IMG/VR virus record: IMGVR_UViG_3300008266_000520
Location: 1 to 28,515 of that record
Reading direction: 5' to 3' (one strand)
From: a virus
DNA length: 28,515 nt
Shown in pieces: positions 9,558-12,571 of the stretch. Position numbers and translations under genes: made by a program. The notes beneath the pieces are model-generated. The model was not told where the DNA came from. It did not search any database and saw only the letters and a program-made list of their open reading frames with translations. Position 1 is the first letter of the stretch. Each line of letters opens with the position of its first letter.

Positions 9558-10964
9558 ATGGGAGTTTTAAGTACACCAGGTTTTGACTTACAGCCATCTG
9601 CTGAGAAGAAAACCTTATCAACAAATTACATTACAAACTTTGATTTCTTGAATCAGTATCTTCCTGATACTTACGAGAAAGAGTTTGAGCGTTATGGTAA
9701 CCGTTCAGTTGCATCTTTCTTAAGAGCAGTTGGAGCAGAGATGCCATCTAACTCTGACCTTATCAAATGGGCAGAGCAAGGACGTTTGCATACTAAGTAT
9801 GTAGACTGCGAGAGTGGAGATGCTGTTAATTCAGATACAGCTACAATCACTGTTAACGACACATTGGTTCCTGGAAATGGCGGTATCGCTTTCCGAGTTG
9901 GACAGACAGTTATGTTGTCATCTAACGCTAATGCTGCTTTGTCAAACAAGGCTATCATTACATCTGTTGACTACACTGCTGGTACATTCGACGTAGCTTA
10001 CTACGAGGCTGGTGGTCAATCATTTGCTTTAGGAGCTGCTGTTACAGCATTCGTTTACGGTTCTGAGTTCAGAAAAGGAACATCTGGAATGGAAGAATCT
10101 TTAGAAGCTGATGACGCTATCTTCGAGAACAGCCCAATCATCATCAAAGACAAGTACGCAGTATCTGGATCAGATATGGCTCAGATCGGATGGATTGAGG
10201 TTACTACCGAGAATGGTGCTACAGGTTTCTTATGGTACATCAAGTCAGAGCACGAGACTCGTTTGCGTTTCGAGGACTACTTGGAGATGGCAATGATCGA
10301 GGCTGTACCTGCTGAGGCTGGTTCTGGAGCTATTGCTACTACTGGAGAAGTTGGAAACAAAGGATCTGAAGGTTTATTCTACGTTGTTAACAACCGTGGT
10401 AACGTTTGGTCTGGTGGTAACCCAACTACATTGGCTGACTTCGACGCTATCATCCAACGTTTAGACAAACAAGGAGCTATCGACGAGAACGTATTGTTCA
10501 TCAACCGTCAGTTCTCTTTCGACATCGACGATATGTTGGCATCACAAAACTCTTACGGAGCTAATGGTACATCATACGGTTTGTTTGATAACGACAAGGA
10601 CATGGCCTTGAACTTAGGTTTCTCAGGATTCCGTAGAGGTTATGATTTCTACAAGACTGACTGGAAGTACTTAAACGACGCTGCTTTACGTGGTGGAATC
10701 GTTGGTGGTGCTATCAATGGTGTGTTAGTTCCTGCTGGATCTACTACAGTTTACGATCAAGTTTTAGGTAAAAACGCTAAACGTCCGTTCTTACACGTTC
10801 GTTACCGTGCATCTGAGACTGAAGACAGACGTTACAAAACTTGGATTACTGGTTCTGCTGGTGGTGCTTCTAACTCTAGCTTAGATGCTATGGAAGTTCA
10901 CTTCTTATCAGAGAGAGCTTTATGTACTTTAGGTGCTAATAACTTCTTCATCTTCAAAGGATAA
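9558..10964 (+). CDS. Major capsid protein
   Basis: The 468-aa protein is the likely shell subunit. It follows portal and scaffold-like genes. It shows the block FRKGTSGMEESLEADDAIFE, then ENSPIIIKDKYAVSGSDMAQ and GFLWYIKSEHETRLRFEDYL, which I recognise from the HK97-fold capsid family of crAss-like and related Bacteroidetes phages. Residues about 80-170 look like an inserted beta domain (TATITVNDTLV ... ITSVDYTAGTFDVAYYEAGG). Arg is written mostly CGT and codons are otherwise uniform, unlike the AGA/AGG-rich neighbours, which fits very high expression. The leader is nearly pure A (ATTAAAAAAACAAAAACAAA) with no Shine-Dalgarno sequence, the strong-translation signal in Bacteroidetes. A strong terminator follows 16 bases after the stop. 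Confidence 0.9.
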   Translation: MGVLSTPGFDLQPSAEKKTLSTNYITNFDFLNQYLPDTYEKEFERYGNRSVASFLRAVGAEMPSNSDLIKWAEQGRLHTKYVDCESGDAVNSDTATITVNDTLVPGNGGIAFRVGQTVMLSSNANAALSNKAIITSVDYTAGTFDVAYYEAGGQSFALGAAVTAFVYGSEFRKGTSGMEESLEADDAIFENSPIIIKDKYAVSGSDMAQIGWIEVTTENGATGFLWYIKSEHETRLRFEDYLEMAMIEAVPAEAGSGAIATTGEVGNKGSEGLFYVVNNRGNVWSGGNPTTLADFDAIIQRLDKQGAIDENVLFINRQFSFDIDDMLASQNSYGANGTSYGLFDNDKDMALNLGFSGFRRGYDFYKTDWKYLNDAALRGGIVGGAINGVLVPAGSTTVYDQVLGKNAKRPFLHVRYRASETEDRRYKTWITGSAGGASNSSLDAMEVHFLSERALCTLGANNFFIFKG

Positions 10965-10980
10965 GAATAGTTGAAATATC

Positions 10981-11017
10981 ACAGAGCCTCATCAGTGAGG
11001 CTCTGTATATTTTTTTT
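10981..11017 (+). terminator. Strong intrinsic terminator after the capsid gene
   Basis: A perfect 11-bp stem (ACAGAGCCTCA at 10981-10991, TGAGGCTCTGT at 10996-11006) with a TCAG loop is followed by ATA and eight T (11010-11017). It lies 17 bases after the MCP stop and should end or strongly reduce the capsid transcript. No TAnnTTTG box is seen between it and the gene at 11043, so that gene may depend on read-through. Confidence 0.92.
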
Positions 11018-11042: not shown

Positions 11043-11783
11043 ATGAAAGCAAATGCTACACCAACGGACAAGATCTATGTCCTAAAGAGTAAGAGTAAGC
11101 CACTATCCTTTATGTTGGCTTCAAGAAATTCAAGTCGTTACCCGTTATTCTACTTTGACGGAAAGACAAACAGAGCGTTAAGATACGCAAGAAACCAGAA
11201 ATCACCCTTCGAGGATGAGCAGGACGGAAACTTTATTTTAGAACCAATAGTATTTACAGATGGTGCTCTTTCTGTTCCTCAGAATAATCCTGTACTTCAG
11301 GAGTTCTTATCGTTACACCCAGATAATGGGAATGTTTTCGAGGAGGTAAACATTGAAAAGGACGCAACGTCTGAGGTTGATAGACTATCAAATGAGTTAG
11401 ATGCACAGATCACAGCAAGGGATTTAAGCTTAGATATGCTTGAGTCTGTGGCCAGGGTATTGCTTGGATCTAAGATCGATAGAATGTCTACATCTGAACT
11501 TAAGAGAGATGTCTTGGTGTACGCCAAGAAGAATCCTATCACGTTCTTAGAGATGTTGAACGATCCTATGCTTCAGTTGCAGAATACCTGCGCTAAGTTC
11601 TTCGAGAATGATTTGTTGAGACTGAAGAACAAGGGTAGAGATATCTACTTCAATCTCCCACAAAATAAGAAAAAATTATTGACCGTTCCTTATGGAGAGG
11701 ACAGTAACTACATATTGGCATCTTATCTACAGACGGACGAGGGTATCGAGGTACTTCGACTGTTAGAGAATAAGTTGCAGTAG
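11043..11783 (+). CDS. Conserved head/neck-module protein, 246 aa, unknown function
   Basis: The protein has an N-terminal beta-rich domain with KPLSFMLASRNSSRYPLFYF, DGKTNRALRYARNQKSPFED and EQDGNFILEPIVFTDGALSV. A helical C-terminal half follows with LDAQITARDLSLDMLESVAR and VLLGSKIDRMSTSELKRDVL, ending NKKKLLTVPYGED ... YLQTDEGIEVLRLLENKL. I recognise this as a recurrent protein placed right after the MCP in crAss-like and related phages, but no function is known to me. It might be an auxiliary capsid or head-completion protein. It lies between two terminators and has no obvious promoter of its own; its start has an A/T-rich leader. Confidence 0.75.
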   Translation: MKANATPTDKIYVLKSKSKPLSFMLASRNSSRYPLFYFDGKTNRALRYARNQKSPFEDEQDGNFILEPIVFTDGALSVPQNNPVLQEFLSLHPDNGNVFEEVNIEKDATSEVDRLSNELDAQITARDLSLDMLESVARVLLGSKIDRMSTSELKRDVLVYAKKNPITFLEMLNDPMLQLQNTCAKFFENDLLRLKNKGRDIYFNLPQNKKKLLTVPYGEDSNYILASYLQTDEGIEVLRLLENKLQ

Positions 11784-11819
11784 CGTTCATTATATTTGAA
11801 CGTTCACGAAAACGTGAAC
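11784..11819 (+). repeat. Overlapping inverted repeats (CGTTCA/TGAACG family)
   Basis: Three nested palindromes occur here. CGTTCA (11784-11789) pairs with TGAACG (11797-11802). TGAACGTTCA (11797-11806) is a perfect palindrome. GTTCACG (11802-11808) pairs with CGTGAAC (11813-11819) around an AAAA loop. A TATATTTG box (11791-11798) overlaps the first. This could be a repressor operator or RNA hairpins; no T-run follows. Confidence 0.7.
11791..11798 (+). promoter_or_regulatory. Bacteroidota-type -7 element TATATTTG
   Basis: TAnnTTTG match inside the loop of the first inverted repeat and overlapping the TGAACGTTCA palindrome. Any transcript begun here would run straight into the hairpins and the intrinsic terminator at 11823-11852, so it would be mainly a short RNA unless termination is relieved. 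Confidence 0.35.
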
Positions 11820-11822
11820 AAG

Positions 11823-11852
11823 AAGCACTTCTGAACGGAGTGCTTTTTTTTT
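11823..11852 (+). terminator. Intrinsic terminator upstream of the neck genes
   Basis: The stem AAGCACTTC / GGAGTGCTT (9 pairs including one T-G) closes a TGAAC loop and is followed by nine T (11844-11852). It ends the transcript of the gene stopping at 11783. The loop plus its next base reads TGAACG, complementary to the CGTTCA units just upstream. Confidence 0.88.
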
Positions 11853-11854
11853 GC

Positions 11855-11862
11855 TATCTTTG
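11855..11862 (+). promoter_or_regulatory. Bacteroidota-type -7 element TATCTTTG
   Basis: TAnnTTTG match 2 bases after the terminator T-run and 16 bases before ATG 11879. It should restart transcription for the neck and tail genes from 11879 on. A separate -33 TTG is not evident, and the T-run may occupy the spacer. Confidence 0.65.
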
Positions 11863-11878: not shown

Positions 11879-12571
11879 ATGATAAATTCGGTGAGATCTA
11901 CCGTAATGTCTGTGGCTAACAAGAATAACTTTGGGTATATTACACCTGAGGACTTCAACTTGTACGCTAAACAGGCTCAGTTAGATATATTTGAGGATTA
12001 CTTCTACCAGTACAACAACTGGATAATTAGACAAAACAATAGAGCTTCAAATAGTTCTTACGCAAATATCGTTAAGAACTTAGAGGAGGTAATAGAGACT
12101 TTCTCTAGTACGGTTGCACTTACGTATTCCGCAGGTGAGTTCGCTCTTCCTAGCGACTATTACTACCTAAATACGATACGATACAACAACACAAAGGAGG
12201 TAGGAAAGGTTTCTCAGAACAAGGTATTGAACCTTCTGTCATCTAACCTGACGTCACCTTCTGTGCTTTACCCTTCGTACACGCTTGAGGGTGATAGTAT
12301 AACGGTGTACCCAAGCACGATACAGACAAACATAAAGGCTCAGTACATCAGGGTACCAGCTGATCCTAAGTGGACATACATATCTTTGTCTGGAGGAGAG
12401 CCTGTGTTTTTTCAGAACGCAACTGACTACCAAGACTTTGAGCTTCCATACACTGACGAGCCTCTTTTGGTGGCTAAGATACTACAGTACGCGGGTATGT
12501 CTATAAGAGAGGGTGACCTATACACGTTCGGGAACCAAGAGGAAATGAAAAATAAACAACAAGAAGGATAA
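11879..12571 (+). CDS. Neck / head-tail connector-type protein 1
   Basis: The frame could be extended to a GTG at 11840, but that stretch is the terminator stem, its T-run and the -7 box, so ATG 11879 is the right start and the product has 230 residues. It begins INSVRSTVMSVANKNNFGYI, then TPEDFNLYAKQAQLDIFEDY, a common opening of podovirus neck (tail-tubular A/gp4-like) proteins in Bacteroidetes phages. A beta part follows with FALPSDYYYLNTIRY (LP at 90-91) and a C-terminal helix. It probably forms one of the dodecameric rings under the portal. The stop overlaps the next start by one base. Assignment is from motif pattern and position. Confidence 0.75.
   Translation: MINSVRSTVMSVANKNNFGYITPEDFNLYAKQAQLDIFEDYFYQYNNWIIRQNNRASNSSYANIVKNLEEVIETFSSTVALTYSAGEFALPSDYYYLNTIRYNNTKEVGKVSQNKVLNLLSSNLTSPSVLYPSYTLEGDSITVYPSTIQTNIKAQYIRVPADPKWTYISLSGGEPVFFQNATDYQDFELPYTDEPLLVAKILQYAGMSIREGDLYTFGNQEEMKNKQQEG

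Follow-up and report, generated by a model that had tools for sequence, protein, structure and literature searches.

The window, a viral contig of 28,515 bases, carries tailed-phage genes coding for a terminase, a portal, and virion proteins, and the named phages closest to it in protein sequence, the elemo phages and phages of Cellulophaga, Tenacibaculum, and Maribacter, infect Flavobacteriia. The locus described here is the junction between two genes on the plus strand. The upstream gene, p5 (11043-11783), follows a virion structural protein gene (9558-10964), matches PHROGs 34748 and 16922, and is of unknown function; its stop codon lies directly 5′ of a palindromic array. The downstream gene, p6 (11879-12571), codes for a virion structural protein (PHROG 14543; E = 2e-44) and has a weak match to the SU10 adaptor (PF24175) that falls below the cut-off. 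A strong terminator with an 11-bp stem is also present one junction upstream (10981-11006), 3′ of the virion structural gene, and a terminator as such is thus not unusual in this phage.

The p5/p6 junction contains an intrinsic terminator on the plus strand (11820-11852), recognized both by folding and by a terminator scan, in which a GC-containing stem-loop with a 12-bp stem (11820-11848) is followed by a T-run. Close to the 5′ side of p6 is a Bacteroidota-type −7 promoter box, TATCTTTG (11855-11862, plus strand), matching TANNTTTG, which we take to be the Bacteroidota −7 consensus. An earlier note on this DNA had proposed this as the second of two promoter boxes, and its placement directly 5′ of p6 is conserved in relatives; the −33 TTTG/TTG position upstream of it is occupied by the terminator and its T-run. 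The junction was sampled at 158 loci, including that of the window, which represent 98 distinct sequences. Among 64 distinct short junctions of relatives, 62 have TANNTTTG 10 to 40 nt 5′ of the ATG and 51 have an automatically recognized terminator, and in the other 13 an inverted repeat before a T-run is visible by eye. The terminator stems of relatives vary in sequence, with pairing kept and a T-run following. Conservation of both elements indicates that terminator plus promoter is the normal design of the p5/p6 junction, and the two are predicted to act separately, one ending the upstream transcript and the other starting that of p6. In 34 of the 98 distinct sequences the junction exceeds 150 nt and frequently contains an inserted small gene, and 33 of these 34 have TANNTTTG within the first 120 nt (e.g., L033, L099, L134, and L159); the long junctions are a predicted cargo hotspot between terminator and promoter.

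Superimposed on this junction, partly upstream of the terminator and partly overlapping it, is an array of four half-sites organized as GTTCA-N12-GTTCA-N8-TGAAC-N12-TGAAC (11785-11836, without strand). Half-site 1 (11785-11789) and half-site 2 (11802-11806, extending to GTTCAC at 11802-11807) are on the plus strand, and half-site 3 (11815-11819, or GTGAAC at 11814-11819) and half-site 4 (11832-11836) are on the minus strand, the last lying in the terminator loop and in the N11/N12 register of host operators. Scored as GTTCAC-N11-GTTCAC-N6-GTGAAC-N11-GTGAAC, the array reaches 22 of 24; the second-highest score in the window is 15, and the highest in 15 simulated windows is 18. Contig L167, which is identical to the window, is an exact match to the array pattern. 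An additional TGAAC (11797-11801, minus strand) outside the four-half-site core creates a second, adjoining palindrome, giving a double palindrome of 17+18 bp that is also found in other, unrelated phages.

The features that the earlier note named within 11784-11862 are all present. The CGTTCA/TGAACG units at 11784, 11797, 11801, and 11832 are four of 17 in the window and fall inside 54 bases; the total of 17 compares with a chance mean of 10.1 and is reached by 4 of 100 shuffles. The exceptional degree of structure that it described is borne out by the RNA fold of 11784-11862, which consists of three hairpins in succession (−27.7 kcal/mol; z = −5.34; none of 200 shuffles is as good), this minimum-energy structure making up 57.5% of the ensemble.

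At the p5/p6 junction the array is present only in the clade of the window, which consists of the window and seven IMG/VR contigs in three versions; a scan with GTTCACGNAAACGTGAAC finds 56 stretches, seven of which belong to this clade, while several of the remainder have the 17+18 bp double palindrome in unrelated phages. The substitutions between versions (two and five, small numbers) are all in spacers and none are in the 20 half-site positions, half-site 1, for example, being the same in all three. The suggestion of a repressor operator at this locus was correct as to the type of element, but what is conserved is the 52-bp four-half-site array, including the terminator loop, and not TGAACGTTCA (11797-11806), the shorter palindrome to which that role had been given and which is made by the extra TGAAC. 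TGAACGTTCA is the sole match in the window with one mismatch allowed, and by count it is not unusual, occurring at least once in 64 of 100 shuffles; it reads TGAGCGTTCA in L006 and in L007/L008, where the extra TGAAC is TGAGC, and as an operator by itself it is rejected as not conserved in the clade. The promoter-like box reported inside the palindromes, TATATTTG (11791-11798, plus strand), is present but is lost in two of the three clade versions. Since a TANNTTTG box is found in only 3 of 79 phage arrays (among the matches listed), a promoter inside the array is not a general feature.

The exact four-half-site pattern is widespread in phages, with at least 119 matching stretches among viral contigs and no occurrence of the letter-reversed pattern. 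Eighty of the at least 119 were listed, corresponding to L167 and 79 new loci, and the latter were analyzed; among these listed matches, the 79 form 54 clusters by flanking DNA, across which spacers diverge while half-sites and spacings are kept, the inner half-sites are of subtypes GTTCAC, GTTCAT, and GTTCAG, and only 11 of the 79 arrays lie inside open reading frames (ORFs), compared with 55.9 expected. The double-palindrome pattern is found in 40 viral stretches versus two in a collection of bacterial and archaeal genomes. Examination of 23 double-palindrome arrays retained after dereplication, each with 100 nt of flank (leaving out L233, a direct-repeat-like locus of Nonomuraea), shows a further half-site at exactly N11 to the left of 13 arrays and to the right of 5, a spacing not imposed by the search, compared with 0 to 2 further half-sites in the same orientation at any other gap from 0 to 30. 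Records of up to 304 kb have roughly a single array each (28 of 30); the two records with no array match have the other spacing, and a second match in four records is an overlapping register or a place with three mismatches. The double palindrome is similarly single in 29 of 32 records with up to three mismatches allowed. The array is palindromic, has no fixed orientation with respect to genes, and is also found between convergent genes, and a DNA site is therefore preferred to an RNA-level element, which was rejected. No protein common to array-bearing phages emerges from blastp clustering of flanks or of larger sequences (to 40 kb for G012 and G026 and 60 to 100 kb for G022), the latter giving no cluster shared by more than 6 of 25 sequence sets; a shared phage DNA-binding gene was rejected on this basis, as was a site-specific recombination site, tyrosine recombinases being present in 2 of 30 array records.

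Arrays are also present in cultured phages. Tenacibaculum phage pT24 has an array without mismatches in a long gap that carries no annotation, and partial arrays, excluded from the counts, lie directly 3′ of a gene stop codon in Cellulophaga phage phi19:1 (L487) and in Nekkels (L488 and L489). BLAST searches with single arrays against named phages are insensitive: one query gave no Bacteroidota phage, one found pT24 weakly, and two found Bacteroidota phages, mostly with weak E-values. Among 17 relatives of the window phage of at least 56 kb, five have an array, always elsewhere than at p5/p6, and the other 12 have none. Two of the five arrays are exact, one has two mismatches, one has a single mismatch and lies inside an elemo gene, and one, in Maribacter phage Panino, is near perfect, a single spacing deviating by one base; Panino is described as virulent (PMC11590407). 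The single-mismatch array (L490 1501-1551, corresponding to elemoE_6-9C 37136-37186) is inside the start of an elemo virion gene, and the stretch recurs in 68 elemo records with at least 99% identity. The patchy and moving distribution among relatives suits an accessory counter-defense function better than a core replication site.

The same type of site occurs in bacterial chromosomes. The inner palindrome is present in 12 of 296 Bacteroidota genomes (three for the reversed control), and several of these sites are just 5′ of a gene for a protein of ∼333 aa, followed by a nucleotidyltransferase gene. The ∼333-aa protein is AbiEi_2 (PF09952; Pfam E = 1e-24 to 1e-28), and the nucleotidyltransferase matches AbiEii (PF08843) just over the cut-off (E = 6e-5). 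PF09952 is present in 48 of 395 sampled Bacteroidota genomes, and the exact four-half-site pattern is in 20 of the 395, at 26 places, with the reversed control in none of the 395. The array is at an AbiEi_2 gene in 14 of these 20 genomes, typically just 5′ of the start codon, and in the other six it is away from AbiEi_2, near AbiEi_4/AbiEii, HipAB-like, HNH, defense-type, or other genes (in G319 it is near no AbiE-type, HipAB-like, HNH, or defense-type gene), suggesting that another regulator may use the same site. An HMM search gave 49 AbiEi_2 ORFs, two of them repeated, leaving 47 that are distinct. GTTCAC-N11-GTTCAC-N5/6-GTGAAC-N11-GTGAAC scores at least 19 of 24 upstream of 16 of the 47 (per-gene shuffle maxima are 14 to 17), with 15 of these 16 arrays at 24 to 38 bp 5′ of the ATG and one at 111 bp. 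The other 31 AbiEi_2 genes have no high-scoring array, and one group has a three-half-site form 11 bp 5′ of the ATG. A search of solved structures gave no sequence relative of AbiEi_2.

The GTTCAC/GTGAAC half-sites and N11-N5/6-N11 spacing of AbiEi_2 operators are shared by the window array, and 11785-11836 is very probably an AbiE-type operator array. However, it is not located just 5′ of an abiEi gene, its neighbors being virion-cluster genes, and it thus resembles an AbiE operator without being part of an abiE operon. As judged from its sequence, it is a free-standing copy of the AbiEi_2 operator, lacking AbiE genes, laid over an ordinary terminator/promoter junction. A phage-encoded AbiEi_2 was considered and rejected: there is none in the 30 records with the double-palindrome or related form, no AbiEi_2 ORF at the 79 phage array loci (among the matches listed), no match by tblastn in 50,697 phage records, and no confirmed example in a scan of viral contigs.

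To our knowledge, the way in which type IV toxin-antitoxin systems, AbiE among them, detect phages or are countered by them is an open question, and our searches of the open-license PMC literature gave no description of an abiE or toxin-antitoxin operator carried by a phage. Among the closest known systems, the AbiEi of Streptococcus agalactiae, a type IV toxin-antitoxin system, is a winged helix-turn-helix (wHTH) antitoxin that binds inverted repeats in its own promoter (TGTTGC...GCAACA) and represses it (PMC3985639). As in the Bacteroidota arrays, those repeats are close to the start codon, but their sequence and spacing are different and they serve abiE, whereas the window array is a predicted site that stands alone in a phage. 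Rv2827c, an AbiEi-like antitoxin of Mycobacterium tuberculosis, is reported to have an operator with four inverted repeats in tandem (PMC7319586), similar to the array in number, although the repeats are of 23 bp, differently spaced, and not in a phage. BrxR and RptR are DNA-binding repressors of defense genes, with BrxR binding inverted repeats and derepression of RptR by a phage-derived partner being discussed; they belong to different protein families, and the portions of these reports available mention no phage-carried operator (PMC9122601, PMC12255303). Phage "sponge" proteins that inhibit the nucleotide signals of antiphage defense (PMC11722364) are alike in countering defense by sequestration, but are proteins acting on nucleotide signals and not a DNA operator.

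Because published AbiEi binds and represses the repeats of its own promoter, the phage array should bind AbiEi and titrate it as phage DNA multiplies, and binding of the array by AbiEi is reasonably likely. In the mechanism that we propose, the AbiEi antitoxin-repressor of the host would bind the phage array, replication of phage DNA would titrate it off the abiE promoter, and AbiE output would be changed in favor of the phage, for example by forcing early resynthesis of antitoxin. An AbiE-type operator acting as a decoy that titrates host AbiEi is the best overall explanation, with a probability of about 0.5. The benefit to the phage is not obvious, since titrating the repressor raises toxin as well as antitoxin, and we regard it as tentative, at slightly worse than even odds. 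Several counts weigh against an AbiEi decoy: AbiEi_2 is in only 48 of 395 sampled genomes, whereas phages commonly have arrays; in 6 of the 20 bacterial genomes with an exact array it is away from AbiEi_2, and no high-scoring array stands upstream of 31 of the 47 AbiEi_2 genes; and no array is seen in 12 of the 17 relatives with 56 kb or more, the array being clade specific at p5/p6. For phages at large, it is an even bet that many lytic Bacteroidota phages carry one free-standing toxin-antitoxin operator that would titrate AbiEi and disarm or mistime abortive infection, or would be the landmark that AbiE reads. If true, a phage-borne operator would constitute counter-defense by noncoding DNA, and the array points to an unrecognized DNA decoy or sensor in phage-host conflict. 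A pattern search suffices to locate it in at least 119 viral stretches as well as in cultured phages (exactly in pT24 and nearly so in Panino and elemo), and such an operator would make the question of AbiE and phages directly testable.

Other explanations differ in what is supposed to recognize the site. A different protein, such as a host or phage regulator or a replication or partition factor, could bind the array, with the abiE likeness reflecting a shared DNA-binding type. The bacterial arrays away from AbiEi_2, the inner subtypes of the listed phage arrays, and the placement of some arrays in long gaps beside replication genes (pT24) fit this idea, but the blastp clusters contain no protein common to array-bearing phages, tyrosine recombinases are scarce in the array records (2 of 30), and the strict position 5′ of abiEi start codons fits autoregulation; on balance it is unlikely, though worth keeping in mind. 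Alternatively, the array may have some other use to the phage and the AbiE antitoxin may have evolved to read it, titration freeing the toxin and bringing about abortive infection. AbiE is an antiphage system (PMC3985639), and arrays are common and about single copy in diverse phages and rare in bacteria outside AbiE or defense-like loci, in keeping with such a sensor. However, patchiness among close relatives (5 of 17) and shifting position are unlike an essential core site, and no shared phage gene accounts for the array; occurrence that is both patchy and in unrelated phages favors a decoy over a sensor, which we consider distinctly unlikely. The array might also be a mobile or relict palindrome, such as an end repeat of an AbiE cassette, with no present function in the phage, as inverted arrays flank an AbiE operon in G343, arrays flank AbiE genes in G355 and G232, and array position differs between related phages. 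The persistence of half-sites and spacings despite divergent spacers across 54 clusters (among the matches listed), the copy number of about one per genome, and the retention of outer half-sites at N11 make a relict very unlikely.

Two further readings concern the junction itself. An ordinary terminator-promoter junction with palindromes arising by chance is consistent with the conservation of terminator and TANNTTTG box across relatives, and holds for those two elements; for the array it is refuted, given a score above the simulated maximum of 18 and an exact pattern that recurs in viral stretches and never in reverse, and as an account of the whole it is highly improbable. The termination switch envisaged in the earlier note, in which CGTTCA units pair alternatively with the TGAACG of the terminator loop and control read-through, has in its favor that such complementary units exist, but it is hardly credible. 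The three separate hairpins dominate the fold, and mutually exclusive pairings are not conserved in relatives; the palindromes upstream of the terminator, for which such conservation had been proposed as a check, are limited at this junction to the clade of the window, and most relatives have other terminators and no CGTTCA/TGAACG units. L026 (p6 about 74% identical) has around 2900-2990 the exact terminator of the window, including the TGAACG loop, and no upstream repeats; a terminator with this loop can thus do without the upstream units. In other phages, arrays show no association with terminator loops, lying between convergent genes or bordering unrelated transcripts. A probable decoy operator remains the preferred reading of the array, with the terminator and promoter beneath it being ordinary.

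Several array loci in bacterial assemblies have additional features. L232, recovered in the double-palindrome search of genomes, is a phage-like contig of a Chitinophagaceae metagenome-assembled genome (MAG), and its ORFs group with structural-type genes from phage contigs that bear the array. The same MAG also contains an abiE operon (L344; genome G081, contig C50, 3416-3466) whose operator has a 17-bp inner palindrome, GTTCACTGCCCGTGAAC, identical to one in the double-palindrome array of L232 (4905-4939); the pair is suggestive, although binning does not prove that phage and host belong together and comparable spacers are present in further phage arrays. The AbiE operon of G343 lies between two inverted arrays (L342 1980-2030 and 3874-3924) that share 34 identical bases, and AbiE genes are likewise flanked by arrays in G355 and G232. 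A reverse transcriptase of the retron/antiphage type (L345 1315-2895, scanned as a partial protein from L281) adjoins an AbiE locus with an array.
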